Shown one piece after another: positions 27,088-63,693 of a stretch of 64,000 nucleotides of DNA. Both the position numbers and the translations under genes were made by a program. Source of the DNA: Oscillospiraceae bacterium. Its GTDB lineage: Bacteria; Bacillota; Clostridia; Oscillospirales; CAG-272. The stretch is from the NCBI GenBank assembly GCA_015064555.1, contig SVRZ01000009.1, positions 1 through 64,000 of the forward strand, written 5' to 3'. The notes beneath the pieces were generated by a model that did no database searches, had not been told where the DNA came from, and saw only the letters and a program-made list of their open reading frames with translations. Position 1 is the stretch's first letter. Every line of letters begins with the position of its first letter.

Positions 27088-30000
27088 TTATCCTACACGT
27101 CCCCAATAAACCTTCGCAGAGCTGTCATAAATCCACATCGATGACCAGTTTAAGGGCCGCGACGATGGCGCACAGTATATCTCAGCGGACACGCGGGAAA
27201 AGGCATATGCGCCTACCGTGGTAACACTGGTAGGAACAAGGAATCTATCCACTTCTGTACAGTAACAGAATGCGTAGTAATCTATCATATTAAGACTATT
27301 CGGAAAATCCACTATGCCTTTCATTGATTTCTGCTCGTAAAAGGCATATGATCCTATGGTTTTGAGCGCAGATTTCGCTTCAAACGACAAGGATGACAAC
27401 GGTACTGCGGTTCCTCCTCCGTTATAGAACAGATATTCGGGGATACTCTCTACATTGCTTGCTATAAGAAGATCTACCGCACCGAATGTTTTTCCCACGT
27501 CACGAAAGGCATATGTTCCTATAGTTTCAAGATTTGTGGCATAATACTTCATGAAGGTAACCGATTTGCAATTATAAAATGCGTACGGAGCAATTTCCGA
27601 CACGTTCGGTACGCTCAAGCTCTTGAGATGAATAGCATTTTTGAATGCATTCTCTCCTATCTGGTATGCCGCTCCTATATCCATATAGACAAGATACGGA
27701 GTCATGGGATCCGTCTCGGAGGTCGAGGGGCAGAACATATTTGCCGGGATTATCGCTCCTGCTTTATCGGAGATAAGAGTAATACCCGTCGAAAGAGTTC
27801 CGGCATCGGCAAAAATAAGATTATCCGCCGCAAATCCGTTAGCGCGCGCATTATAGACGATGCTTGTGATACGAGTGCAATTCATAAAGGCACCCGTTCC
27901 TATAGAAGTAACCATGGAAGAAATAGAAAGATCTGTTATACCCGTGCCGCTGAATGCATATTCGCCTATTGATATATCTGTGCTATAGTTATCGGTAAAG
28001 TAGACACATGTGAGTGAGGTACAGCCCTCAAATGCACTTTTCCCTACAGTTGCAAGAGTGTTTTCGGGTAACAGGTTGAGTTTTATACAGCCACTGAAGG
28101 CAAAATCACCTACGAATGCATTGCTCAAGGGAACCCTCTCGAGAAGCTCACATCCATCAAATGCCCGTACTCCAACCGTGGTGATCGAGGGTGCGGAGGT
28201 GTTTATGCCGACAAGCGCGGATGCCGATGCAAATGCTCTTTCGGATATTACCTTGAGCTTCGGCATATTTACCGCTACCAGAGAGCTGCATCCCTCAAAG
28301 CAAGCGACACCGAGAAAGCTTACCGTATCAAATGATATTTCAGTAAGACTCGTACATTCTCCGAATGCACCGCCGCCGAGGCTCGTGACAGATTTTCCGC
28401 CTGTAACAGTTGCGAGCGAAGAGCATCCGTAAAAAGCAAGCCCCTCTATTTCACAGATCTTACCCGGCAGGCTTATAGCTTCGAGCGACGTACAATATGC
28501 GAATGCCGAGGCATATATTTTCAAGGTATCTTTGTCAAGAACTATTTCGGTAAGGCTTCTGCATCCCCTGAATGCACCCGAGTCTACGGTCACTACGCCG
28601 GTCAGAACTGCCTTTTTTATCGAAGAATCCTCAAATGCATTCATACCGAGGCTCAAGACCGCTCCATTTGTATCTATAGACTCAATGACGGCTGATTTGA
28701 ACACTGCATTTCCCATGTAATAGTCAGCCCCGTTAAATTTTTCAGGGAGCACTACGTCTGTCGCATTCCCATGATAATCTATCAGATAATGCTTATCCCC
28801 AATAGTCACAAATACAAATCCGCCGTCAATCTCAACGAATTCGTACTGAGATGCATCCGTACATATTATCTTGGGATAATCGGTTATATTACTCATGGTC
28901 AGATCATCTTCGTCAAGCTGCGTCCTGTTTTCCAGAATGATCAACCTTATGCAATCGTAGAATGCCCGTGTGCCGAGGTGCAAAACTTTTGACGGAAGCG
29001 ATACGGTCATCAATGCGTGACAATATGAAAAGGCTTCGTTCTCAATATCACTGAGCGTTTCAGACGGTGCGAAGCTGCGAATACCGCTCTCCTGAAATGC
29101 CCCGACTCTGATGGTTATCAGCCCATCTCCGCCAACTATCTCCCCAAGACCGGAGCATTTTGCAAAGGCATATTTACCTATTACGGTTACGCACTCGGGT
29201 ATGGTAACCGAAGCTATACCGGTGCAATGGTAGAACGCAGCATCACGGATTTCGGTTATACCTTCCGGAATCACTATATCTCCGGATATCAGCTCTCCGT
29301 TCAGATAAAGAGATGCGCCCGTTTGGTAAATCGGATTTGAATATATATTGACAAATGCTATATTACACCAAGCGGAAATATCATTTGCATATACCTTTGT
29401 TATTCTCGAATCCGAAAATGCACTTTCTCCTATCTCGCTAACAGATGCCGGTATATTTATGCTGTCAAGCGACTTACAGTTATAGAACGATCTTTTACCG
29501 ATAGAAGATACACTGTCGGGAATAATTAGTTCTGCCAGAGACTCGCATCGATCAAATGAATAATCAAATATGCTTGTTACACCATCCGGTAAAATGATCT
29601 CTTCCACATTGAGACAGCCCGAAAATGCACCGTGTCTGAGATTTCCGCCCGTCATAATTATTCTTTTCAGAGAATCCGGAACATTGTATCTGACATAAGA
29701 CATATATTTGTAGCACTGATTTGCGCCACCGGAATACACACTTCCGAAGATATATCCGAAAACGCTCTCCTCGGTCTCATTTGCAACCATGAGACTCTTG
29801 CCTATATACGGGATAGTAATGCTTTCGACAGCAGAGCATCCGTAGAACGCATTTTCTCCTATCTGATAGACGTCTGACAAAATTACAACTTCCTTCAGCG
29901 ATTTGAAATTGCTGAATGCACCGTATTTTATATCACCGCCGCGTACAGTTATTTTTTCGAGTCGGTCGGGAGCATAACAGGTATTGCTTCCTTGACTTGA

Positions 30001-31794
30001 ATATGCTTGGCGAATACTCGTTCCTCCTTCGTATTGCCAATCTCCGAAAATATATCCGAAGAGCGCCTGTTTTTCAACCGCAATACGAGAACTTCCGACA
30101 AATGGCATATTTACAGATATTATTGAGGAGCAGCCGCTGAAGGCACCCTCGCCGATAAATTCGAGGCTATCCGGCAGATACAGATCCGTAATGCCGATGC
30201 AATTAACGAATGCACGGCACTCTATGGTCTTTATTCCTTCCTTGAGGATCGGCGTAGCACCGCAATCTGCGAAGGCATTTTCCCTGATCGTGACTATTTC
30301 GGTCGGCAAATCTATCGTTCCACCCTTACATCCCGAGAAGGTATAAGACGCGATCTCGGATATCAACGTTCCCTCGGCAAAGCTGATCGTGGGAGATGTG
30401 CCGCGAAAGGCATATTGACCTATTACGCGCACCGCCGCCGGGATGACGAGCGACTCGATCTTGCCGCAATCAGCAAAGGCAAGGCTCATTATTTCTGTCA
30501 CTTGATCGTCTATATATGTATTTTCGGAGTCAGATGCACGAACGAGCAGCATTTCCGATCTTTTTATCAGACATCCGCCTCGGGACATATAATATGCATT
30601 ATCGGGATCGACGGTTATCGAGCCAAACGTACAATTATCAAATGCACCGTCCTCTACGACAGTGACGGTATAGGGCAGCGAAATACAGTTAAATGACATA
30701 CCGCTGAATGCACCCGCAAGAATTTTAGTCACAGGCTTATCAAGGCTCATCGCCGGAACTACCGCATTTTCAAGCTCTTTGTCTGAAACACCGAAAAGGT
30801 AATAGGACGTATAATCCTCAGATAATATATAGACAAATCCGTCCGTAGCAACTCTCTGATATCCGCAAACCGAGCAGATGTTTTTATCGTTGTAGTTATG
30901 ATCTGCCTCCGAGCCCCTGAGCCCCTCGCAGCCACAGCTTGGCGGATTCCAATGCTTTTCATCATCATATTCATACATTTCCTTATCGTAGGTATGATCT
31001 ATCATATCGATATCGGTATACTCTTTAGCACCGCACACCGTACAATAAGCAGTTGAAACACCGAGCTCGGTACAGGTCGGCAGCTTTGTTACATAAGGAT
31101 CGGAAAATGAATGCTCTTCCCTTTGCTCGAGCTCCTCACAGCCACATGTATAGCTGAACCAATGATGTGTCTTATCGCTCGAGTACACCGTTTCCACCGC
31201 GTGCTCTACTATCGGGATAGGCTCTGTTTTTTCTGCATCGCAGCCATAGCTTGTGCAACGATAATGCATCTCGCCCTCTTCGGTGCAGGTAGGAGCCTTG
31301 ATAATTTCACCTTCGCTCCAGGTATGCTCCCACTTTATTATTTCGCATCCACAGGTCCAAATCTCCCAGTGATACATATCATCAAATGCGTATCCATCAA
31401 CAGTATGATACCTCGCCGGTATCGAGGACTTAACGGTATAGCCGCATACGTAACAGGATTTACTCTTCTCACCGGGGGTTGTACAGGTTGGCTCAAGAGT
31501 TACGGTTTCCTCTCCAAACTTATGCGATCCATAATCCGCAACATATCCTTGCTTCTCTGCCTCTTCACAGCAGTTTGAAGGACGGTAATGCTTTTTATCG
31601 TTATAAACGAATTCATCGCTGTAGGTGTGCTCGTGCTTGATAAAACAACCGCACTCGTCACAGATACTATCCATATCGAGGTCCTTGTGGATCTCGCATT
31701 TCTGCTCGCTGCCGGCAGTCGATCCCATATTGATACATGCGCACAAAATCATAGCTACACAAAATATCAAAGTCGCAAAAGCATACCTTCTCAT
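27088..31794 (-). CDS. Very large BspA-like leucine-rich repeat surface lipoprotein
   Basis: Encodes 1568 residues. A signal peptide ends at a lipobox-like LCAC (Cys20). Residues ~30-320 hold about six Cys/His-rich repeats with the pattern PTCTEEGE...CxxCG plus HTY/HTW, a module common in surface proteins of gut Clostridia. From ~330 to the end run some 40 LRR_5 (BspA) repeats, recognisable by AFxxCxxLxxIxIPxxVxxIGxxAF-type spacing (IGKYAF, IGEGAFSGC, IGTYAF). Such proteins bind host matrix or other cells, so adhesion is the likely role. ATG 31794 follows GGAGGTG and a consensus promoter. No LPxTG or S-layer anchor is seen, consistent with lipid anchoring. Confidence 0.92.
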   Translation of the reverse strand: MRRYAFATLIFCVAMILCACINMGSTAGSEQKCEIHKDLDMDSICDECGCFIKHEHTYSDEFVYNDKKHYRPSNCCEEAEKQGYVADYGSHKFGEETVTLEPTCTTPGEKSKSCYVCGYTVKSSIPARYHTVDGYAFDDMYHWEIWTCGCEIIKWEHTWSEGEIIKAPTCTEEGEMHYRCTSYGCDAEKTEPIPIVEHAVETVYSSDKTHHWFSYTCGCEELEQREEHSFSDPYVTKLPTCTELGVSTAYCTVCGAKEYTDIDMIDHTYDKEMYEYDDEKHWNPPSCGCEGLRGSEADHNYNDKNICSVCGYQRVATDGFVYILSEDYTSYYLFGVSDKELENAVVPAMSLDKPVTKILAGAFSGMSFNCISLPYTVTVVEDGAFDNCTFGSITVDPDNAYYMSRGGCLIKRSEMLLVRASDSENTYIDDQVTEIMSLAFADCGKIESLVIPAAVRVIGQYAFRGTSPTISFAEGTLISEIASYTFSGCKGGTIDLPTEIVTIRENAFADCGATPILKEGIKTIECRAFVNCIGITDLYLPDSLEFIGEGAFSGCSSIISVNMPFVGSSRIAVEKQALFGYIFGDWQYEGGTSIRQAYSSQGSNTCYAPDRLEKITVRGGDIKYGAFSNFKSLKEVVILSDVYQIGENAFYGCSAVESITIPYIGKSLMVANETEESVFGYIFGSVYSGGANQCYKYMSYVRYNVPDSLKRIIMTGGNLRHGAFSGCLNVEEIILPDGVTSIFDYSFDRCESLAELIIPDSVSSIGKRSFYNCKSLDSINIPASVSEIGESAFSDSRITKVYANDISAWCNIAFVNIYSNPIYQTGASLYLNGELISGDIVIPEGITEIRDAAFYHCTGIASVTIPECVTVIGKYAFAKCSGLGEIVGGDGLITIRVGAFQESGIRSFAPSETLSDIENEAFSYCHALMTVSLPSKVLHLGTRAFYDCIRLIILENRTQLDEDDLTMSNITDYPKIICTDASQYEFVEIDGGFVFVTIGDKHYLIDYHGNATDVVLPEKFNGADYYMGNAVFKSAVIESIDTNGAVLSLGMNAFEDSSIKKAVLTGVVTVDSGAFRGCRSLTEIVLDKDTLKIYASAFAYCTSLEAISLPGKICEIEGLAFYGCSSLATVTGGKSVTSLGGGAFGECTSLTEISFDTVSFLGVACFEGCSSLVAVNMPKLKVISERAFASASALVGINTSAPSITTVGVRAFDGCELLERVPLSNAFVGDFAFSGCIKLNLLPENTLATVGKSAFEGCTSLTCVYFTDNYSTDISIGEYAFSGTGITDLSISSMVTSIGTGAFMNCTRITSIVYNARANGFAADNLIFADAGTLSTGITLISDKAGAIIPANMFCPSTSETDPMTPYLVYMDIGAAYQIGENAFKNAIHLKSLSVPNVSEIAPYAFYNCKSVTFMKYYATNLETIGTYAFRDVGKTFGAVDLLIASNVESIPEYLFYNGGGTAVPLSSLSFEAKSALKTIGSYAFYEQKSMKGIVDFPNSLNMIDYYAFCYCTEVDRFLVPTSVTTVGAYAFSRVSAEIYCAPSSRPLNWSSMWIYDSSAKVYWGRVG

Positions 31795-31832
31795 AACACA
31801 CCTCCGTCTAAATATTTTATACTTTTTATTCA

Positions 31833-31861
31833 ATTGTAGCACAGTTCGATACATTTGTCAA
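31833..31861 (-). promoter_or_regulatory. Promoter of the BspA-like gene
   Basis: Minus strand: TTGACA (31856-31861), a 17-base spacer and TACAAT (31833-31838), about 40 bases before the start at 31794. Its position shows that the longer open frame cannot be translated from its first codon. Confidence 0.88.
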
Positions 31862-54425: not shown

Positions 54426-55655
54426 TCAAATAACTACGTGCACGGGCATTCCGTGGTCGTAACGGGGCGAATTTTCGCCTATAACGAGCGGAGCGAGATA
54501 CCCGAGGCATTCCTCGGTAACACCGTTTCCGGCCTCATTTATGTAGCTTTCGGGCACCGTTTTTATAGCATTTGCAATACCCTTTATATCAGCCATGCCG
54601 AATTCTACCGAATATCCGTCGGCAGAGACTCTTTCTATAGTAGCCATTACGCCTGTATTTCCGTCAAGCGCGAGAGCGACTCCCGCCTTTCCGACACCTA
54701 TCGATTCGCGAAGGTCGGTAAGGCTGGCGATATGAGCGGCACAGCGCTGAGGAAGACTCAGCTCCACAGAGCGCACCTTGCATCCTATCCTCTCCTTCAC
54801 TAATGACTCGAGCACCTTGCCCGTACCCGAAAGATATTTATGACCGAATACGTCTACTGCGCCGGATTGACTGCCAGCACCCACGTACTCGCCGCTCGCA
54901 AACCTTATTCCCTCGGAAACGCATACCAGAACCGCGGGATGCTTCTCAAGTGCCGCACCTACAGAGCTTATAAACTCATCCTCGTCAAATATACGCTCGG
55001 GAAGATATATGAGATCAGGTCCCTTACCGGAGAGCGAGGGGAGTGCGGATGCTGCGGTAAGCCAGCCTGCATCTCTGCCCATTACCTCGACTATCGTAAC
55101 TGCCTTCACGGTATATACGTTGACGTCGGCTATCATTTCCTTGACGGTGGTAGCAACAAATTTTGCCGCCGAGCCAAAGCCGGGGGTATGATCGGTTGCA
55201 ACCAGGTCGTTATCTATAGTCTTGGGAATGCCTACAACGCGCATTTCGTAATCATGCGCCGCCGCGTAATCCGAGAGCTTAAGAACGGTATCCATAGAAT
55301 CGTTTCCGCCGATGTAGAAGAAATATCTGATATTATGGCGCTTGAATATTTCAAGCATACGGGCATAGGTCTCACCGTCCACCTCGTGGGACTTGAGCTT
55401 CTTCCTGCACGAGCCGAGGGCAGCGGCAGGAGTATTCTCAAGTGCTGAAAGCCACTCCTCGTCAAAAAATCTTTCTCCGAGATCGACGAGTCTTTCCTGA
55501 AGAAAGCCATCAATTCCGTTCCTCATACCGTAAAGCGTTTCTATTCTTCCCGCCCTGTGTGCCTCGGCACATCCTCTTATAACACCCGAAAGGGTTGCAT
55601 TGATTGCGGCGGTGGGACCGCCGGATTGACCTACTACAGCATTTCCTATAAGCAT
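54426..55655 (-). CDS. 6-phosphofructokinase, pyrophosphate-dependent type
   Basis: Phosphorylates fructose 6-phosphate in glycolysis. Motifs: GQSGGPTAAINATLSG, IGGNDSMDT and PKTIDNDLVATDHTPGFGSA. ATP-using enzymes have Gly at the GGDGS position and PGTIDND; the Asp of GGNDS and the Lys of PKTIDND point to pyrophosphate as donor. VEVMGRDAGWLTA and a C-terminal GRDASPR-like substrate site also fit. Length 409, the mid-size class of PPi-type or related enzymes in Clostridia. GGAG lies upstream of the ATG, 48 bases after hslO. Donor preference is inferred from the motifs. Confidence 0.9.
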   Translation of the reverse strand: MLIGNAVVGQSGGPTAAINATLSGVIRGCAEAHRAGRIETLYGMRNGIDGFLQERLVDLGERFFDEEWLSALENTPAAALGSCRKKLKSHEVDGETYARMLEIFKRHNIRYFFYIGGNDSMDTVLKLSDYAAAHDYEMRVVGIPKTIDNDLVATDHTPGFGSAAKFVATTVKEMIADVNVYTVKAVTIVEVMGRDAGWLTAASALPSLSGKGPDLIYLPERIFDEDEFISSVGAALEKHPAVLVCVSEGIRFASGEYVGAGSQSGAVDVFGHKYLSGTGKVLESLVKERIGCKVRSVELSLPQRCAAHIASLTDLRESIGVGKAGVALALDGNTGVMATIERVSADGYSVEFGMADIKGIANAIKTVPESYINEAGNGVTEECLGYLAPLVIGENSPRYDHGMPVHVVI

Positions 55656-55703: not shown

Positions 55704-56585
55704 TTAAAGCAAATCCTTTTCCGTAAAGGTGTATTCCGAGTTACAGAAGTGGCAGATGGCAGTGAGTGAGCGCGCCTTTCCCTCTTTTTCCTGTGCGTTC
55801 AGCATATCGATTATCTCGGACTTGCCGAGCCCCTTGATCTTCTTGCACATCCTATCTCTTGAGCAGTCGCATCTGTACTCAACCTCAATAGTGTCAAAGT
55901 AATCAAACGGAATATCGCGCATAGCTACCTCGATAATTTCCTCATTCGTCATTCCCCTATCGAACATGGAGGATATATTGTAAAGCTCTCCAGCATTTCT
56001 CTCTATCAGATCGACCGTTTTATCATCCGGGAACGGCAAAAGCTGAATAAGAACACCGCCCGAAGCTCGACATCTGCCGTCAACGCCAACCAGAACTCCG
56101 AGCGAAAGAACTGTGGGAACCTGCTCGCTCTTTGCAAAATACGTGGCAATATCCTCTGCTATCTCGCCCGATACTATCTCTATAGTACCGCTCTGGGGCT
56201 CCTTGCCGCCTATATCCCTTATCATATAGAACACACCGTTTCCGACAGCCTCGCCTACGTTCAGCTTACCGTCCGGCCTGCGCTTAGGATCGGCATTCGG
56301 GTTTGCGATAAAGCTCTTTACGTTTCCGAAATAATCGGCAACCGCGAGCATTTTACCTATTTCTCCGTCTGCATTAAAGCCGAGTGTGACCGTATCCCCA
56401 TTTTCGGGAAGCATAGTGCCTATCATAGAAGCTGCGGTTACGAGTCTGCCGAGAGCGGCAGTGGAGGTGGGAGCCGTCTTATGGACTTCCAGCATTCCGT
56501 TTACAAGCTCCTTTGAATTTATGACAAGAACTCTCGCCGAGCCGTCTCTTGTCATTCCTCTGGTTATAATTGATTTATTTCCCAT
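55704..56585 (-). CDS. hslO: Redox-regulated chaperone Hsp33
   Basis: Holdase chaperone switched on by oxidation of a zinc site. The N-terminal domain reads as Hsp33 (HKTAPTSTAALGRLVTAASMIG, GNVKSFIANP). The C-terminal zinc-binding cysteines are seen as CDCSRDRMC and CHFC; the first is the CxC form of the family. Length 293. Its start overlaps the methyltransferase stop by 11 bases, so it is part of the same run of genes, downstream of the TerB-N/helicase group. Confidence 0.95.
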   Translation of the reverse strand: MGNKSIITRGMTRDGSARVLVINSKELVNGMLEVHKTAPTSTAALGRLVTAASMIGTMLPENGDTVTLGFNADGEIGKMLAVADYFGNVKSFIANPNADPKRRPDGKLNVGEAVGNGVFYMIRDIGGKEPQSGTIEIVSGEIAEDIATYFAKSEQVPTVLSLGVLVGVDGRCRASGGVLIQLLPFPDDKTVDLIERNAGELYNISSMFDRGMTNEEIIEVAMRDIPFDYFDTIEVEYRCDCSRDRMCKKIKGLGKSEIIDMLNAQEKEGKARSLTAICHFCNSEYTFTEKDLL

Positions 56586-57354
56586 ATGTTTTACCGTCCT
56601 TTATACATTTTGCAACCACGTATATGCGATCGTCGTTATCCGTTGCGGTGCTGAAATCAAAATCCGAGTAGGCACCGATAAATTCAAAGGAATTGCGTGC
56701 AAGCGCACTCCTTATCATCCTGAGGGTATACATTCGCTCCCTCTGCTCCTCATCGTAGCGCTCATATCTGCCATCCTCGCACTCGCAGAACAGGGTTATG
56801 TAAAAATCGCATATGCCGCTTTTTTCGTTGTAATAGTTTTGCCAGATACAAAGAGCTCCGTCATCCTCCATGGCATAGGTCTCCCTGCCGTATACCCTTT
56901 CAAACTTGCCTTTGCCGTTTATATCAAAAATAAACAGACCGTTCGGTATAAGGTAATTATGGACGAGTGAAAGACATTTATCAAGATCCCCTCTTGCTAC
57001 CAAATGATTCAGAGCATCAAGGCACGAGACCGTGACGTCCACCGTTCCGTAAAGCTCAAACCCGCGCATATCCTGGCATAGCCAAAGCATTTTATCCGAC
57101 AGACCGCACTCCTCGCCTCTGCCTCTTGCTATATCGAGCATTTCGGGAGAATAATCAATTCCCGTCATATCGTAGCCGCGCTTTGCCAATTCAAGCGTCA
57201 TGCTACCCGTTCCGCATCCGAGATCAAGAACGAGCGAAGGGGTTCCCTCTGTGTACTCTTTTTTTATGACCGATTCTATAAAATCAGCCCATTTAGCATA
57301 ATCTATATCCCCATTGAACCTATCGTAAAACGGAGCAAGCAGATCGTATATCAT
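56575..57354 (-). CDS. Class I SAM-dependent methyltransferase
   Basis: A 259-residue protein with Rossmann methyltransferase motifs: LVLDLGCGTGSMTLELAKRGYDMTG (residues ~41-65, motif I), MLDIARGR and DVTVSCLDALNHL (motif IV region). It opens YDLLAPFYDRFNGDIDYAKWADF, typical of small-molecule or protein methyltransferases of the YjjT/UbiE-like type; no DNA-methylase motif (DPPY, NPPY) was seen, so it is not an obvious restriction-system methylase. GGAGG lies ten bases before the ATG, and 20 bases separate it from the helicase gene upstream. Substrate unknown. Confidence 0.85.
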   Translation of the reverse strand: MIYDLLAPFYDRFNGDIDYAKWADFIESVIKKEYTEGTPSLVLDLGCGTGSMTLELAKRGYDMTGIDYSPEMLDIARGRGEECGLSDKMLWLCQDMRGFELYGTVDVTVSCLDALNHLVARGDLDKCLSLVHNYLIPNGLFIFDINGKGKFERVYGRETYAMEDDGALCIWQNYYNEKSGICDFYITLFCECEDGRYERYDEEQRERMYTLRMIRSALARNSFEFIGAYSDFDFSTATDNDDRIYVVAKCIKDGKTYGK

Positions 57355-57374
57355 AAAAGGCTATCCTCCAAATC

Positions 57375-59609
57375 TTATTCAAAGCGCTCGAATATCTCGT
57401 CGGAGCGGAGTCTGTCACAGGCATATGCCTCGCGCAGAAGCTCGGGCGGGATATATTCATCGTACTTATCGAATATCGGGCATTCGCCCTCGCGGACCAG
57501 CTCGGCGGTATCGATTCCGTCGCGCTCAAGAATCGCGCGGATTCCAAACAGGATACTCTTGCCCATTTCCTCGTTCGCCTTGAATTTTATGTAGCAGCAG
57601 CCCTCGCTCTGAATATCCGATATTCCGAGCTCGGATGCATATTTCTGCAGAAAGCGCCTGAGCGTCCTGAAGGACACCGTTCCAAGCCAGGGGAACATAA
57701 CGTAGCTCTGTCCGCCAAGGAATACGACCATATTTTCATCCATTCCCGCATTCTTTGCTACCCGTCTTGCATTTTCAAGCCTTTGCCTTGCATTGTCACC
57801 GAGGAAGGGATAATCCTTTCCGTTAAAGAGAACGTCGCGCATGGCGAGCAGGAGCTTCGTGTGTATTTCTCCGCTGTCGCCGGGCCAGGATATCTCCATC
57901 TTTCCCTCAACGCGCTTGACAAAGATCAGCCTTCGCTGAACATCGGTCTCCTTTACCTCCCATACCCTGCCGGCAAGAGCAAATCTGTCACCGACGGGAG
58001 GCGGTGTAGTTATAGTTCCTATCTCCTCACTGTCACAACGGACGGTAAAGTCCTCGCTGTCCTTGAAGACCGCATAGAACTTGAAGCTGTTTATTATTCT
58101 CTCGCCCTTCAGTCCCACTATAAGCCTTTTTTCCTCGGTCAGCTCGATATAATCCGAATTTATCATAGCCACAAGGAGCGCGCGATAGCTCTCCTTATCT
58201 ATAGCCGCAAGCGGCGGAAGCCCCAGCACAAGCTCGGCAAGCTCGCGCGGTGAACGCTCTCCGCCCGAGGCAAGTATGCTGAGCGTCTGATGGAATGCCA
58301 GGCTGAGAGGCATTTTCCTGAATCTCGGAGGCTCTATGAAGCGCTCGGAGGAATAAAGCTCTATTATACCTATTCCGCGAAGCAGCTCCCACGGAATGAT
58401 CTCCGGTAGGGGTGCATTCGGCAGTGGCATATCCTCACGGTAAAGCATTATCATCTCGGGCGGAGTTCCGCGCCTGCCCGATCTTCCAAGTCTTTGCAAA
58501 AAGCCCGATACCGTGGTAGGCGAGCCAACCTGGCACACTCTTTCAAGCCTTCCTATATCTATTCCAAGCTCCATAGTCACCGTAGCAGAGGTAACAGCCC
58601 GGAGCACCGTTTCATCCTTCATTTTTGCCTCGGCATCCTCTCTGAGCGACGCCGAAAGATTTCCGTGATGGATAAGGAATATGTCCGCATCTCCTCTTGC
58701 CGCCGCTATCTGACGCAGTGTTGCGGTAACGTATTCGGTCTCCTCTCTTGAATTTGCGAATATAAGCGCCTTTTTATCGGCTACCGAATCATAGAGAAAT
58801 TCGTAACCCGGATCGAGCGCGGCATAGCCGCCCTTATCCTCATTGGGCGCAGTTGAAAGCGAGGGCGAGGATGTCTGCACCTCGTTTGAATTCTGAATGT
58901 AAAAATGCTCAAGTCCCAGCCGCCAGCGAAGCTTGGTCGGCTCCGGAACCGGCGCGCAGGTCGCTCTGCCGCTTCCTGCACCGAGCCATGCTGCCGCAAG
59001 CTCGGTGTCGCCTATGGTCGCGCTCAATCCTACGCGGCGGGGCGAATGACCGATAAGGCGTGCGATTCTGACGAGCTGACAGAGCACCTGGTTTCCCCTG
59101 TCCTGACCTATCATTGCGTGGATCTCGTCAATAACAATGTATTTCAGCCTGCCGAAAAGCCGCGGAATATCGTTTGATCTGTTCATAAGCATCGATTCAA
59201 GCGACTCGGGTGTTATCTGCAGAATCCCCGAGGGCTCCTTGAGCAGGGCCGATTTATGCGAGGCACTTACGTCCCCGTGCCAATGAGTTACACGGATGCC
59301 CGACATATCGAGAAGCTCCTCGAGTCGGTAGAACTGATCGTTTATAAGTGATTTGAGAGGGGCTATATACAGAACCGACACCGAAGATGCCGCATCCGCA
59401 TCCGACACAACGTCTGCGATTATCGGGAAAAATGCCGCCTCGGTCTTGCCCGAAGCCGTGGATGAAGAAAGAAGAAGATTGTCATCCGTTTCAAGTATAG
59501 CGTGCGCCGCCTTCAATTGGATATCGCGCAGCTCGCTCCAGCCGTGACTGTAGATATATTCCTTTATGAAGTCGGGAAAAAGCGAAAATATTCGGTTCGC
59601 TTCGTTCAT
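57375..59609 (-). CDS. Lhr-like DEAD/DEAH-box helicase (BrxHI/BrxHII-like)
   Basis: A 744-residue superfamily 2 helicase. Motifs: Gln31 of the Q-motif, STASGKTE (50-57, Walker A), TPES (133-136), DEIH (161-164), SAT (196-198), IFANSR (283-288), TMELGIDIG (345-353) and QRLGRSGRRG (372-381). About 360 residues follow, read as a winged-helix region and a C-terminal domain of the Lhr-type core. Lhr-like helicases of this size occur in BREX types 2 and 3 beside BrxD. Here it is the third gene of a unit with a BrxD-like ATPase and a TerB-N protein. AGAGGAGG precedes the ATG, 33 bases after the ATPase gene. Confidence 0.88.
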   Translation of the reverse strand: MNEANRIFSLFPDFIKEYIYSHGWSELRDIQLKAAHAILETDDNLLLSSSTASGKTEAAFFPIIADVVSDADAASSVSVLYIAPLKSLINDQFYRLEELLDMSGIRVTHWHGDVSASHKSALLKEPSGILQITPESLESMLMNRSNDIPRLFGRLKYIVIDEIHAMIGQDRGNQVLCQLVRIARLIGHSPRRVGLSATIGDTELAAAWLGAGSGRATCAPVPEPTKLRWRLGLEHFYIQNSNEVQTSSPSLSTAPNEDKGGYAALDPGYEFLYDSVADKKALIFANSREETEYVTATLRQIAAARGDADIFLIHHGNLSASLREDAEAKMKDETVLRAVTSATVTMELGIDIGRLERVCQVGSPTTVSGFLQRLGRSGRRGTPPEMIMLYREDMPLPNAPLPEIIPWELLRGIGIIELYSSERFIEPPRFRKMPLSLAFHQTLSILASGGERSPRELAELVLGLPPLAAIDKESYRALLVAMINSDYIELTEEKRLIVGLKGERIINSFKFYAVFKDSEDFTVRCDSEEIGTITTPPPVGDRFALAGRVWEVKETDVQRRLIFVKRVEGKMEISWPGDSGEIHTKLLLAMRDVLFNGKDYPFLGDNARQRLENARRVAKNAGMDENMVVFLGGQSYVMFPWLGTVSFRTLRRFLQKYASELGISDIQSEGCCYIKFKANEEMGKSILFGIRAILERDGIDTAELVREGECPIFDKYDEYIPPELLREAYACDRLRSDEIFERFE

Positions 59610-59642
59610 TAAAAATCCTCCTCTCTGTATTTCTGCCTTAGA

Positions 59643-61016
59643 TTAAATATCAATATCGAATAAATTTACCTTTTTACGAGTTGTTTCGCGTTCCTCTGAG
59701 TCGGAAGCAATATCAGATGCCAAGGACTCGGCATACTCATTTCCCATACTCCTTATAAGCTCGGAAAAGCTTGCGCTCTTATTATCTCTCAGTATATTGA
59801 GGAAGGAAAGATAATCTCTTATTATCTCGCGGGGCGTGAGCATTTCATCCGCACCTGCACGTGACCTTGCCGCCCTTACAAATTCTTCTATCTCGCTATC
59901 CGTCACGGGGGCGGGTGTCCCCTCCTTCATAGCATAAAGGTTGGTCAGTCTTTTAACGAGCGCAAGAAGCTCGCTGCCCGAAAGAGTCCTCAGCCTGATG
60001 ACGGGAGAGGAAAGATTTCTGTAGCCGCTGAGTGCATCGTACTTAGAGTCTGCAAGTCGGCTCTTCAGAGCATCATAGCTGAAGAGTCCGCGGCGCGTGT
60101 CCTCGAGAAACTGAGGCGTTCCACCGAATATCACACCGAGGCTCTTTGCCTTTCCCTGAAGCGTATCGTTGAATATCGCGAGCAGCTTTTCATAATTCGC
60201 CTCGCGAGAGATACGGTTTGGTATCTTATAGAGATTTACACATTCGTCTATGAATACTATGAAGCCCGAATATCCGAGCTTTACCGAAAGCGATGCAAAG
60301 AGCTTTATAAAGCCATACCAGTTATCATCGTCTATAACGCAGCTTACTCTGAAGCCGAGCGCGGAATTCGCCTCGGTCTTATTGGAGAACTCACCGCGAA
60401 GCCAGCGTAAGCAAGCACTTTTCTTGTCGATATCGTCGCCGATGAGCGCAGAATAGTATTCCCCAAGCACCCTTGCAAAATCAAAGCCTCCAACGTCGCC
60501 CTCAAGCTCGGCGAGCATTCTGATAACCCTCCTTTTAAGAGCGTCCTCGTAGACGGGAGAATCGGGGGTTATACCCTCCACCGCGAGCTCTGCCTGAAGA
60601 TTCGCGTAATATCGCGAGAGAATGGTCGGCAGAGCGCCGCCGTCCGGCGATGCTTTTATTGCAATATTGGTCATAAGCTCCTTGTAGGTTGCAAGTCCCG
60701 CTCCGCTGCCGCCTGTCAGTCTTCTTTCGGGTGAAAGGTCGGCATCTGCACATATGAATCCTCGCTCGAGAGCTCTACCGCGTATAAGCTGTATAAGGAA
60801 GCTCTTTCCGCTTCCGTACCTTCCTATAAGGAAGCGGCAGGCAGCACCGCCCTCGGCAACATCGTCGAGATTGCCGAGCAGAGAGCCCAGCTCCTCTTCT
60901 CTGCCTATCGCGATATACGGTGCTCCTATTCTCGGAACTACGCCCGCAGCAAGCGAGGTGATGAGAGTGTTAAGTATCCTTTTCGGAACCCTTACCTCGG
61001 TATTTATCTGATCCAT
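59643..61016 (-). CDS. BrxD-like P-loop ATPase (DUF2791 / BREX ATP-binding family)
   Basis: A 457-residue AAA-like ATPase. Walker A is GRYGSGKS (residues 65-72), Walker B IVFIDEC (253-259), and a sensor-type segment GVIFGGTPQF (294-303) follows. The sequence GAGLATYKELMTNIA, LSSPVIRLRTLSGSEL and LTPREIIRDYLSFLNIL are features recalled from the DUF2791 family that includes BrxD of BREX. Its start overlaps the end of the TerB-N gene by 13 bases, so they are translated together. It ends 33 bases before the helicase gene. The likely role is an ATP-driven partner of the helicase; this is inference from BREX pairs. Confidence 0.85.
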   Translation of the reverse strand: MDQINTEVRVPKRILNTLITSLAAGVVPRIGAPYIAIGREEELGSLLGNLDDVAEGGAACRFLIGRYGSGKSFLIQLIRGRALERGFICADADLSPERRLTGGSGAGLATYKELMTNIAIKASPDGGALPTILSRYYANLQAELAVEGITPDSPVYEDALKRRVIRMLAELEGDVGGFDFARVLGEYYSALIGDDIDKKSACLRWLRGEFSNKTEANSALGFRVSCVIDDDNWYGFIKLFASLSVKLGYSGFIVFIDECVNLYKIPNRISREANYEKLLAIFNDTLQGKAKSLGVIFGGTPQFLEDTRRGLFSYDALKSRLADSKYDALSGYRNLSSPVIRLRTLSGSELLALVKRLTNLYAMKEGTPAPVTDSEIEEFVRAARSRAGADEMLTPREIIRDYLSFLNILRDNKSASFSELIRSMGNEYAESLASDIASDSEERETTRKKVNLFDIDI

Positions 61017-62611
61017 TCAATAATCTCCTCGTAATAATCCTCTATTATCACATATCCGCTATCCGATATTTCCAGGATAACGTCGCCGAAATTATCGGCA
61101 AATGCATTGTTTATCCTCTCCGCCACGGTATCCTCGGATTCTCCGAGTGAGGCGGCGATATTCCGCGCATCAACGATGCGCCCGTCGGCTATTGCCGCAA
61201 TATATGAGACGTCGAATTCCGAAAGTCCGTACCTTCCGGCAGTATCTTTCGGCTCGGTATTCACGGTATTCGTCTGCTCGTCCGCGCGGTGCGCGGCGCC
61301 GTCGGTCTTAGCGATCGGTGTCTCGGTATCCTCATATTCCTCGATGCCCTCAACGAGCCTCGCGGTCATATTCCATGACGCACGCTCTATCTCCAACGCG
61401 TTTTCAAACGAAATATCGGTTTCCTCGGATATATACAGCTTCTCGTACTCGGGTGCGTTTGCTCGCTCACGCTCGCGTCTGAGGCGTGCAAATTCGCCCT
61501 CGAAGTATTCGTCTATTATCCTCTTATATTCATCGGGAAGATTGCCGACCGAGATACGGCTCTTCACACCTATACAGGCGCGAAGCTTATTCTCGGTATA
61601 TCTCACCGCGGCGGTCACAGCCGCCCTCAGCCCGGTAGAACCGGAGATCGGATAGTATTCTATATCAAGTATGCATTTTACACTATGCGTGCAGAGCGAT
61701 CCCTGGAATGCCGTCCGAGAAATGAGTGCACTCTCTGTGCCGTAAAGTGCATCGCTCTCTGTTATCAAAGAGAATATACGGCTCATAGCTCCCTCAAGAT
61801 GAAGCCTGTAGGTATCGGCATTATCGCCGCCCGCATATTTTCCGCGGCGCCAATCGTAGTCCGAAAGATAGGCTATCATAGCTGAAGCCGCACTGACTCC
61901 CTTCAAAGATGGCGACAGGTAAAACTCCTTGAAGGCAGATGCGTTTATAATGTCAAAAATGAATTCGCCTATTTCCTCAAATGGGAAATCCAGCTCGTAA
62001 ACGAGGCAGTAATCCTGCATCCAGAGTGCGAAGCTCTGATCTATCTTCGGTAATTCGCGCCTGTACTCTCGCCAAAGGCGCGCAAGCATGATAAGTCCTT
62101 GATCGGGCGGTATTTTCTCGGGAAGATTCAATATCTCGTAAACGTAAAGATACAGATAAGAATAGTCGGTCTTGTGATATCTGCCCGAGCGCACCTCGTC
62201 GCGCCAATAGAAATAATACCTCTTCTGCTCATCGGTCATCTGCGTGTATTGCGGCTTATATGAATAAAATGGTACGAATTCCGATCTCTGACACTTATAC
62301 TCATAATATATAAGCGCCGCCTTCCTGAAAGTGCCGTAAAAATCGAAGCGGTCGACCGAGGGCTTTACCGTCACGCGTTTTATCAGGCGAGAGGATGCCG
62401 GAATATAGCTTCTTTCTCCCCCGTTCGCGCTGTCCCGGCGATAATCGGAAAAATCGAGCCTACGATCATCCTTTTCCAAGGATGAAGAAGGCGCATCTAT
62501 CACTACGTCACCTATCTTAGCCGAGGTCGCAAAGGAGCCGAGAGAGGATTTTTTCTTCGGCACAAGCCTTGATACGTCCCAGAAATCGTCGCGCTCGTCG
62601 TAATTATTCAC
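61004..62611 (-). CDS. TerB-N domain protein
   Basis: A 535-residue soluble protein, first gene of the unit. After ~90 low-complexity, charged residues comes a TerB-N-like region (about 95-290) with QMTDEQKRYYFYWRDEVRSG, SYLYLYVYEILN and ALWMQDYCLVYELDFP. The C-terminal ~75 residues (LSEFDVSYIAAIADG, then GYVIIEDYYEEIIEWI) look like a winged-helix or TerB-C-type end. GTG 62611 is chosen as start because AGGAAGGAGG lies eight bases upstream; an open TTG at 62665 has no ribosome site. TerB-N domains are linked in the literature to phage-defence and stress-type gene sets; the function here is unknown. Confidence 0.78.
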   Translation of the reverse strand: MNNYDERDDFWDVSRLVPKKKSSLGSFATSAKIGDVVIDAPSSSLEKDDRRLDFSDYRRDSANGGERSYIPASSRLIKRVTVKPSVDRFDFYGTFRKAALIYYEYKCQRSEFVPFYSYKPQYTQMTDEQKRYYFYWRDEVRSGRYHKTDYSYLYLYVYEILNLPEKIPPDQGLIMLARLWREYRRELPKIDQSFALWMQDYCLVYELDFPFEEIGEFIFDIINASAFKEFYLSPSLKGVSAASAMIAYLSDYDWRRGKYAGGDNADTYRLHLEGAMSRIFSLITESDALYGTESALISRTAFQGSLCTHSVKCILDIEYYPISGSTGLRAAVTAAVRYTENKLRACIGVKSRISVGNLPDEYKRIIDEYFEGEFARLRRERERANAPEYEKLYISEETDISFENALEIERASWNMTARLVEGIEEYEDTETPIAKTDGAAHRADEQTNTVNTEPKDTAGRYGLSEFDVSYIAAIADGRIVDARNIAASLGESEDTVAERINNAFADNFGDVILEISDSGYVIIEDYYEEIIEWIR

Positions 62612-62697
62612 CGAATTATCCTCCTTCCTCGTCCCAACGTATGGGTATATACCTGCCTTAGGCAAATATTATTTCTGCATTTGCCCGGTAATGATAA

Positions 62698-62726
62698 ATT
62701 ATATCATATATTTCGTTGTTTGTCAA
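62698..62726 (-). promoter_or_regulatory. Promoter of the TerB-N / ATPase / helicase unit
   Basis: Minus strand: TTGACA (62721-62726), a 17-base spacer and TATAAT (62698-62703), both perfect. The start of transcription would be near 62690, giving a leader of about 80 bases before GTG 62611. Confidence 0.92.
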
Positions 62727-62737
62727 TGTTTATACGC

Positions 62738-62788
62738 AAAAAGACAGCGGATCGGTGGAAGCGGTAATATCCACAGCGATCTGCTGCC
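62738..62788 (-). terminator. Terminator after ispE
   Basis: Reading the minus strand, GGCAGCAGATCG pairs with CGATCCGCTGTC (one mismatch) with an inner GTGGA/TCCAC, followed by five T. It separates ispE from the next promoter. Confidence 0.85.
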
Positions 62789-62814
62789 TTTTTATTGAGT
62801 TTTCATCATCAGCG

Positions 62815-63693
62815 TCAGACGGATGAAGCGCTCCACGCCAGATATCCCGAGCGAAGCAGACTGTCTCTTGCATTCTGAGCCTCTTCAGCGGTATCAAAGA
62901 TACCGAACACCGCGGGTCCGCTGCCGCTCATCATAGCTACGCCGCCCATCTCGATCAGCGCGGATATTATATTCTTTGCCGTAGGACATTCGGGTAGGAC
63001 GACCTTTTCGAAGATATTGAACATATCCTCTCTATGTATTCTGCCCTTCGAGATTGCGCGGATTATTCTCGGATATATCGCCTCGCCACCCGAAGGAATG
63101 CTACCGTCAAATGAAGAATAATCGGCATCAAGCATACCGTATGCCTCGGGGGTTGAAACGTGCTCTCCCGAGGATGCAATGACCACATTGAGCTTCATTG
63201 AAGTGTCTATGCGATGTATGCGCTCTCCTCTGCCCTCGCAAAGTGCCGTTTTTCCAACAACGCAATAAGGAACATCGCTTCCTATCGAAGCACCGATATC
63301 CGAAAGTGCCTTTGCCGTGAAGGGCCGCTTATATATTCTGTTAAGCGCGCGAAGCACTGCGGCGGCATCGGATGAGCCACCCGCAAGACCTGCGGATACG
63401 GGAATGCGCTTAACGAGCTTTATGTTTACCTCGTCGGTTACCCCAAGACGCTCCATAAAAGCCTTTGCTGCCCTAACCGCGAGATTTTTATCGTCATGCG
63501 GAAGGTGGGAATTTTCCGGCATAAAGATATTAACGCGGCATAGGGCGGCAGGCTTAACGGAAACCGTGATATCATCCGAGAGCGAAACCGAGTGCATAAC
63601 TGTTTTTATATTGTGAAATCCGTCATCTCTTCTCGAGATAACGTCCAGATAAAGATTTATCTTCGCGTATGCCTTTTCCTTGGTGGCAGTCAT
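62815..63693 (-). CDS. ispE: 4-diphosphocytidyl-2-C-methyl-D-erythritol kinase
   Basis: Fourth MEP step: ATP-dependent phosphorylation of the CDP-methylerythritol intermediate. A GHMP kinase: AYAKINLYLDVISRRDDGFHNI at the N-terminus, the phosphate loop PVSAGLAGGSSDAAAVLRAL (residues ~90-110) and the C-terminal MMSGSGPAVFGIF. Length 292. AAAGGAGCG precedes the ATG. It stands alone between a promoter and a terminator, far from ispD-ispF. Confidence 0.97.
   Translation of the reverse strand: MTATKEKAYAKINLYLDVISRRDDGFHNIKTVMHSVSLSDDITVSVKPAALCRVNIFMPENSHLPHDDKNLAVRAAKAFMERLGVTDEVNIKLVKRIPVSAGLAGGSSDAAAVLRALNRIYKRPFTAKALSDIGASIGSDVPYCVVGKTALCEGRGERIHRIDTSMKLNVVIASSGEHVSTPEAYGMLDADYSSFDGSIPSGGEAIYPRIIRAISKGRIHREDMFNIFEKVVLPECPTAKNIISALIEMGGVAMMSGSGPAVFGIFDTAEEAQNARDSLLRSGYLAWSASSV

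Follow-up and report, generated by a model that had tools for sequence, protein, structure and literature searches.

A Shango gene trio as a probable resident lineage of one family of gut Clostridia

The stretch of DNA analysed here, referred to below as the window, comprises positions 1 to 64,000 of contig SVRZ01000009.1 from an Oscillospiraceae bacterium (assembly GCA_015064555.1) and carries three adjacent minus-strand genes whose predicted products resemble SngA, SngB and SngC of the Shango system. We think it fairly probable that this trio belongs to a distinct, vertically inherited Shango lineage that is resident in a single family of gut Clostridia, where it most likely serves as standing surveillance of DNA against phages. 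The trio itself is known; the novelty lies in how it lives in this family.

A role of the window trio in phage defence would follow by analogy from published tests of homologues. In Pseudomonas aeruginosa, Shango consists of a TerB-like protein, an ATPase and a helicase and is a published anti-phage system; it lowered plating modestly (10- to 100-fold) for many though not all phages, its genes restricted phages when moved into another strain, and the same paper, on P. aeruginosa hotspots, cites a report of Shango in Escherichia coli (PMC10250203; this and the other papers cited were available as excerpts, to which our statements refer). Shango has further been found in E. coli islands (PMC11096173) and among rumen defence systems (PMC13356809), a TerB domain is listed for it (PMC10952713), restriction-modification genes have been described near it outside defence islands (PMC10924106), and its mechanism is given as unknown in a 2026 review (PMC12926258). 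In the open-access literature searched, a library outside which most subscription papers lie, no title or beginning of an abstract refers to a vertically inherited Shango.

Sequence homology of the three proteins to SngA, SngB and SngC

The three genes of the trio are as follows:
61004..62611, minus strand: sngA homologue, 535 residues from a GTG start, with TerB_N at residues 108–214 and TerB_C at residues 425–530
59643..61016, minus strand: sngB homologue, 457 residues, BrxC/BrxD-type ATPase with Walker A GRYGSGKS and Walker B VFIDE
57375..59609, minus strand: sngC homologue, 744 residues, superfamily 2 (SF2) helicase

As the original prediction had described, these are three open reading frames of which the first two overlap by 13 bases, with 33 bases between the second and the third. 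The first frame, 61004–62665 on the minus strand, encodes 553 residues when read from the TTG at 62665, and the GTG at 62611 is probably the start, giving 535 residues, because an AGGAGG (62620–62625) stands 8 nucleotides upstream of it. Profile searches against Pfam bore out the families first proposed from the motifs: the first protein matches PF13208 TerB_N (4e-18) and PF15615 TerB_C (8.6e-8), the ATPase matches PF10923 BrxC_BrxD (6.8e-144, 480 bits), and the helicase matches DEAD (3.7e-29) and Helicase_C (4.5e-13). The Walker residues of SngB are invariant in an alignment of 25 rows and the SF2 motif residues of SngC in an alignment of 22 rows, in agreement with the motifs first noticed in the window.

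Among the defence models of PADLOC each window protein scores best against its own Shango model, with 160 bits (3.7e-47) for SngA, 528 bits (5e-159) for SngB, where the next best model is BrxD with 137 bits, and 762 bits (1.8e-229) for SngC, where the BrxHI models reach 400 and 251 bits. The genes for the TerB-type protein, the ATPase and the DEAD/DEAH helicase lie side by side in the window, in the Shango arrangement, and the three proteins and their order are the same as in the Shango systems of E. coli and P. aeruginosa. Judged by these profile matches, the trio is a Shango system in which all three proteins are homologous to SngA-SngB-SngC. The original prediction had regarded the TerB-N protein as a substitute for missing parts of a bacteriophage exclusion (BREX) system; since all three proteins match Shango models, this reading of BREX without BREX genes falls.

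The Hachiman paper puts the SngC, BrxHI, DruE and DpdJ helicases in one SF2 clade (PMC12278908, excerpt), and the window SngC matches the models of all of these, that of SngC by far the best. In an alignment of 59 resident SngA rows TerB_N is found in 59 and TerB_C in 54, and a central TerB domain (PF05099) in none; the window SngA has no match to it either. The E. coli SngA, at 769 residues, does have the central TerB. In our view this match is not defining for Shango. It was also rejected as a mark of lineage, as no more than 6 of the 26 SngA rows from other Shango systems carry PF05099.

Distribution of the trio

The host's family, which we coded f1, was sampled with 196 genomes, its genus with 69, its order with 247 and its class with 293; genomes at least 90% complete and at most 5% contaminated are called good. 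In the genus, 50 of the 69 genomes have SngA, as do 20 of the 22 good ones; in the family it is found in 137 of 196 genomes, spread over 56 of 71 genera, and in 87 of the 116 good ones. In the order sample it was matched in 61 of 247 genomes, of which 17 are among the 28 members of family f1 and 44 among the 219 genomes of other families, and in the class sample in 23 of 293, of which 21 are among the 278 genomes outside the order; three of these order and class matches are weak (e.g. G364 with 19 bits and G681 with 22 bits), so that the figures are, if anything, inflated. The other two genes follow SngA closely in the family, with SngB in 138 genomes (87 good) and SngC (E<=1e-80) in 133 (88 good). 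In 14 control genomes SngB was matched once, SngC three times and SngA not at all. The close relatives that have a name are recorded as uncultured Clostridia, as Oscillospiraceae and as Ruminococcus-type bacteria, and many of them come from the guts of ruminants.

The three genes occur together. All three were found in 129 of the 196 family genomes, SngA with SngB in 7, SngB with SngC in 2, SngC only in 2, SngA only in 1 and none in 55, while independent genes would give about 65 genomes with all three and about 6 with none. This upholds the earlier suggestion that the trio is conserved on its own. No fourth conserved partner appeared in a neighbourhood survey of 62 loci outside the genus, where non-trio protein clusters recur in at most 5 of 41 genera.

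By tree position or best match, 108 of the 137 SngA carriers were typed: 101 are resident (two on doubtful rows) and 7 are of another Shango type, with 29 untyped. The seven other-type carriers (G006, G008, G076, G122, G139, G164 and G165; four good genomes) fall in 4 genera, and none of them has a second SngA match. No genome in the family sample has two full-length SngA matches, and one, G130, has a second partial match. In this sample the two types are thus never found together in one genome, an observation that is suggestive only, as its statistical test takes all untyped carriers to be resident.

As a control we counted hsdR, which is present in 31 of the same 196 genomes. It occurs in 13 of the 130 SngA carriers that are not of the other type (29 of these carriers being untyped) and in 18 of the 66 remaining genomes (Fisher p 0.003). 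A link between loss of the trio and restriction systems was nevertheless rejected, as this contrast did not hold up on the rpoB tree, where 7 independent pairs gave a median p of 1.

Descent of the resident lineage

All trees were quick searches under a simple model. In the SngC tree of 91 rows, 73 resident rows (69 of family f1 and 4 of family f15) are separated from 18 others with support 100; the genus forms one clade (99), as do the residents of family f1 (99). A combined SngB and SngC tree, from which ten picked rows without an SngB or SngC sequence were left out, adds the chromosomal trio of E. coli, plasmid trios of Klebsiella, Sulfitobacter, Sphingobium and Natrinema, those of Cetobacterium and of two Paenibacillus plasmids, and four named contigs. 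Here 39 resident rows stand apart from 30 others with support 100. An SngB tree with 40 more family genomes likewise sets 104 rows apart from 20 others (support 99); two of its rows, G070 and G099, have very long branches, perhaps from a wrong frame, and their type is doubtful. With all family rows placed in one clade the approximately unbiased test gave p 6e-6, a test that was chosen after the tree had been seen and from which the long Cetobacterium row was left out. The Shango systems of E. coli, Klebsiella, Sulfitobacter and haloarchaeal plasmids thus belong to a clade separate from the resident lineage, in trees that contain no P. aeruginosa sequence.

For comparison with a species marker, 92 genomes were picked for rpoB, of which 79 were searched, 77 matched, 75 were taken and 66 used; nine rows were dropped in which the longest open reading frame had no rpoB match at 1e-50. 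The resulting tree of 66 genomes is enriched in absences of the trio by choice. The window genome, which is 82% complete, has no rpoB match and for this reason appears in the SngB and SngC trees only. Counting all branches, SngC shares 16 of 41 splits with rpoB (44 rows; random expectation 0.26) and SngB 12 of 36 (39 rows; random 0.19). Among strongly supported splits the agreement is closer: SngC shares 11 of 15 and has a single conflict, against 14.5 conflicts with shuffled labels, and SngB shares 9 of 12 and has no conflict, against 11.6. The distances in the rpoB comparison correlate as well (r 0.67, with 0 of 1000 permutations as high). Among the three proteins SngA diverges fastest, with about 23–36% identity to most other genera compared with 57–65% for SngC.

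The site in the genus and the separation of the genes

The genes that border the trio in the window, and those beyond them, are as follows:
62815..63693, minus strand: ispE, left border of the trio site, an open reading frame named from a reading of its protein
56575..57354, minus strand: S-adenosylmethionine-dependent methyltransferase gene, right border (Methyltransf_25, 8e-19)
55704–56585: hsp33, beyond the methyltransferase gene, named from a reading of its protein
54426–55655: phosphofructokinase gene, beyond hsp33 (PFK, 7.4e-53)

The trio keeps this site within the genus. The methyltransferase gene follows sngC in 18 of 20 good SngA-bearing genus genomes; of the remaining two loci, one stretch ends inside sngC and one is without a methyltransferase match. 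Upstream of sngA, ispE was matched in 7 of the 20 loci. We searched six trio-free genus genomes for hsp33 and opened five of them (two good, three 80–88% complete). In all five, ispE stands next to the methyltransferase gene; 17 to 297 bases separate the matched parts, without any part of the trio in between, which indicates that the trio can be lost cleanly.

Flanking genes were also compared by PADLOC and Pfam between 21 resident loci (120 proteins) and 19 other Clostridial Shango loci (104 proteins). The contrast is weak, as both sets look mostly household. Among the matches listed, the named family seen most often in the resident flanks, in 6 of 120 proteins, is riboflavin kinase/FAD synthetase, and the PADLOC matches listed include helicase models of DinG, RecD and UvrD type, each with a single protein; those listed for the other Clostridial Shango flanks include DpdF, PsyrT and mad3 models. 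The mobile or defence-island setting that is usual, though not defining, for Shango was not seen for the resident trio in the genus site, the neighbours in other genera, the separated genes or the trees; the flank scans are weak on this point. Two of the non-resident Clostridial Shango loci have tandem SngC-like helicase genes (L123:6312-10824 and L130:2533-7099).

Within the family the operon is often broken up. In 50 of the 129 genomes with all three genes, sngC lies on a contig other than that of sngB, a count that includes contig breaks. Twenty such separated sngC regions were inspected, and in 15 of them sngC stands alone, flanked on each side by 4 kb or more; four have a shorter side, and G017 has sngB beside sngC with sngA apart. 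In 7 of the 15 genomes with a lone sngC the sngA/sngB region was also inspected and is without sngC. In three genomes of genus g18 the inspected sngA region contains neither sngB nor sngC. The three genes are co-retained even where the operon is broken up, which suggests that the three Shango proteins can work without co-transcription. In genus g21, two genomes (G020 and G127; L261 and L262) keep only sngC, on a long branch, and two others (G083 and G170) have all three genes.

Rates of substitution could be compared in the resident pairs with a synonymous rate (dS) under 1 (G246/G255 and G037/G140), the other resident pairs being saturated in dS. The ratio of nonsynonymous to synonymous rates (dN/dS) is about 0.18 for SngA, 0.08–0.14 for SngB and 0.06 for SngC. 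The same method applied to neighbours in G246/G255 gave about 0.09 for hsp33 and about 0.16 for phosphofructokinase, and no value for the methyltransferase. Purifying selection on the trio is thus of about the same strength as on the household genes beside it.

Mobile relatives

SngB-like genes were found in 690 of 72,556 plasmid records, 542 of them predicted conjugative, with a best identity of 50.1%. Nine of ten loci inspected are uninterrupted trios and the tenth is broken. Eight of the nine are annotated as a TerB N-terminal protein, an ATPase and a helicase, in that order, and the Salmonella record calls the first an ATPase. A Shango query from Klebsiella finds a match in 497 of 5,426 genomes of E. 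coli, whose Shango was reportedly described by Millman in 2022, and in 438 of these genomes the match covers at least 80% of the query. The copy in E. coli RM14723 (L363) is split by an insertion sequence, frameshifted and close to an AbiEii gene. The phage collection contains no SngB match, and viral contigs searched with two short patterns yielded three SngC relatives at 31–35%. No plasmid row falls in the resident clade of the trees, which include the best plasmid matches as two rows.

Interpretation and alternative readings

Several results weigh against a resident, vertically inherited defence lineage. SngA is missing from 29 of 116 good family genomes, so that the trio is not universal, and five genus genomes have clean empty sites. 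To account for the trio on the absence-rich rpoB tree, 9 changes are required over 52 family rows, which we read as several losses. The neighbours of the trio differ between genera, one strong SngC split conflicts with rpoB, and with weak branches counted only 2 in 5 splits agree. Defence systems are less commonly kept for long throughout a family than household genes are. Elements from uncultured gut Clostridia are probably scarce in the plasmid, phage and viral collections, for which reason the absence of the resident lineage from these collections is weak evidence. The earlier view of a housekeeping setting and of a resident unit rather than a mobile island is nevertheless sustained by the prevalence of the trio, its fixed site in the genus and trees that follow rpoB. 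In these respects the resident lineage appears to differ from the Shango of E. coli and P. aeruginosa, being vertically inherited, near-core and often unlinked.

The alternative that best survives is that the resident trio forms a genome-maintenance complex that acts on structures such as stalled forks or DNA ends in the cell's own genome, with phage restriction by other Shango systems as a later use or a by-product. We regard this as a real possibility, though a less likely one. The genes are near-core, vertical and often unlinked, with household flanks, and the SngC sequence resembles, within the helicase core, solved structures of an "ATP-dependent DNA helicase" (5v9x and 7lhl, which we take to be Lhr helicases) and of YprA (6znp), a helicase with a role in repair; searches of solved structures by phmmer gave no meaningful match for SngA or SngB. 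The MZB domain belongs to YprA/MrfA-type helicases. It has no Pfam match in the window helicase, which shares the helicase core with Lhr- and YprA-type enzymes, and it (PF09369) is present in only 2 of the 196 family genomes. This scarcity counts in favour of maintenance, but the domain is rare with or without the trio, and no replacement of YprA/MrfA is therefore visible. Against maintenance also stand the clean losses in nearly complete genomes, from which it follows that the trio is dispensable, and the finding, in the excerpted P. aeruginosa paper, that homologues restrict many, not all, phages tested in another strain (PMC10250203).

It is very unlikely that the trio spread horizontally several times inside the family. 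The position of the trio does differ between genera, with the lack of a common neighbour cluster and the single discordant SngC split pointing the same way, but in their strong splits SngB and SngC are largely in accord with rpoB, and unlinked genes are not readily moved as a cassette. Even less credible is an ordinary mobile Shango cassette that sits among household genes by chance. Such cassettes clearly exist, as the plasmid and E. coli matches above demonstrate, and one paper describes Shango as over-represented in prophages (PMC13064858, excerpt). The prevalence of the trio, set beside hsdR in just 31 of the same genomes, its fixed genus site, its co-retention when unlinked and its congruence with rpoB led us to reject this explanation. 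A BREX remnant, or a new type of BREX with BrxD and an Lhr-like helicase as its basis, is the least probable of all: PF10923 spans both BrxC and BrxD, the ATPase and helicase superfamilies are shared with BREX systems that have BrxD and BrxHI, and the helicase matches the BrxHI models, but the Shango models score far higher, the ATPase reaches 139 bits against the NCBIfam BrxD model with its cut-off of 350, the first gene is of TerB type, and no BREX gene was found among the neighbours examined in a search that covered the surroundings of the trio.

Under the preferred reading of surveillance against phages, SngA, SngB and SngC would form a standing, non-mobile complex that blunts phage replication. 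SngA may act as scaffold and sensor arm, holding the complex together and sensing or recruiting, SngB as an ATP-driven switch or loader, and SngC as the motor acting on abnormal or incoming DNA. For the effector step our preferred guess is the remodelling of replication intermediates. Whether the trio remodels DNA rather than cutting it seems to us about evenly balanced, and remodelling is preferred because Pfam detected no nuclease domain in the SngA, SngB and SngC homologues. A bolder idea, which we hold only tentatively and consider doubtful, is that the resident lineage is a family-wide surveillance of the chromosome, inherited as household equipment with its parts acting in trans from separate loci, and that mobile Shango is its exported version or the resident lineage a domesticated cassette.

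A lineage that a family has retained throughout its history provides many diverged and naturally separated copies from which key residues and contacts can be learned. It also allows a test of whether defence machines of the SngC helicase type tend host DNA as well. In counts of defence genes, not every SngABC match need be a mobile system.

Promoter, borders of the unit and other features of the window

Two further features lie between sngA and ispE:
62698..62726, minus strand: promoter TTGACA-N17-TATAAT with TG before the -10 element, a sequence match at 12 of 12 positions
62730..62805, minus strand: terminator-like hairpin after ispE, from its fold energy and a U run

The perfect promoter of the original prediction looks strong and proved to be the sole 12/12 match in 57000–63000, among 11 promoter-like sites where 6.3 are expected. 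A promoter-like site upstream of sngA was found in 12 of the 20 genus loci by a regular expression used without a chance control. The hairpin has a fold energy of -28.1 kcal/mol (z -5.6; none of 200 shuffles equally stable) and, as predicted from sequence, closes off the upstream side of the trio from ispE. The trio had been described as a stand-alone operon; this agrees with the upstream border, whereas closure on the downstream side is not sure because the same-strand methyltransferase gene begins 20 bases after sngC. No tRNA gene adjoins the trio, as had been stated, and none is present in the whole window. Elsewhere in the window, positions 27088–31854 on the minus strand encode a 1588-residue BspA-type leucine-rich-repeat protein (PF13306, 8.7e-167).

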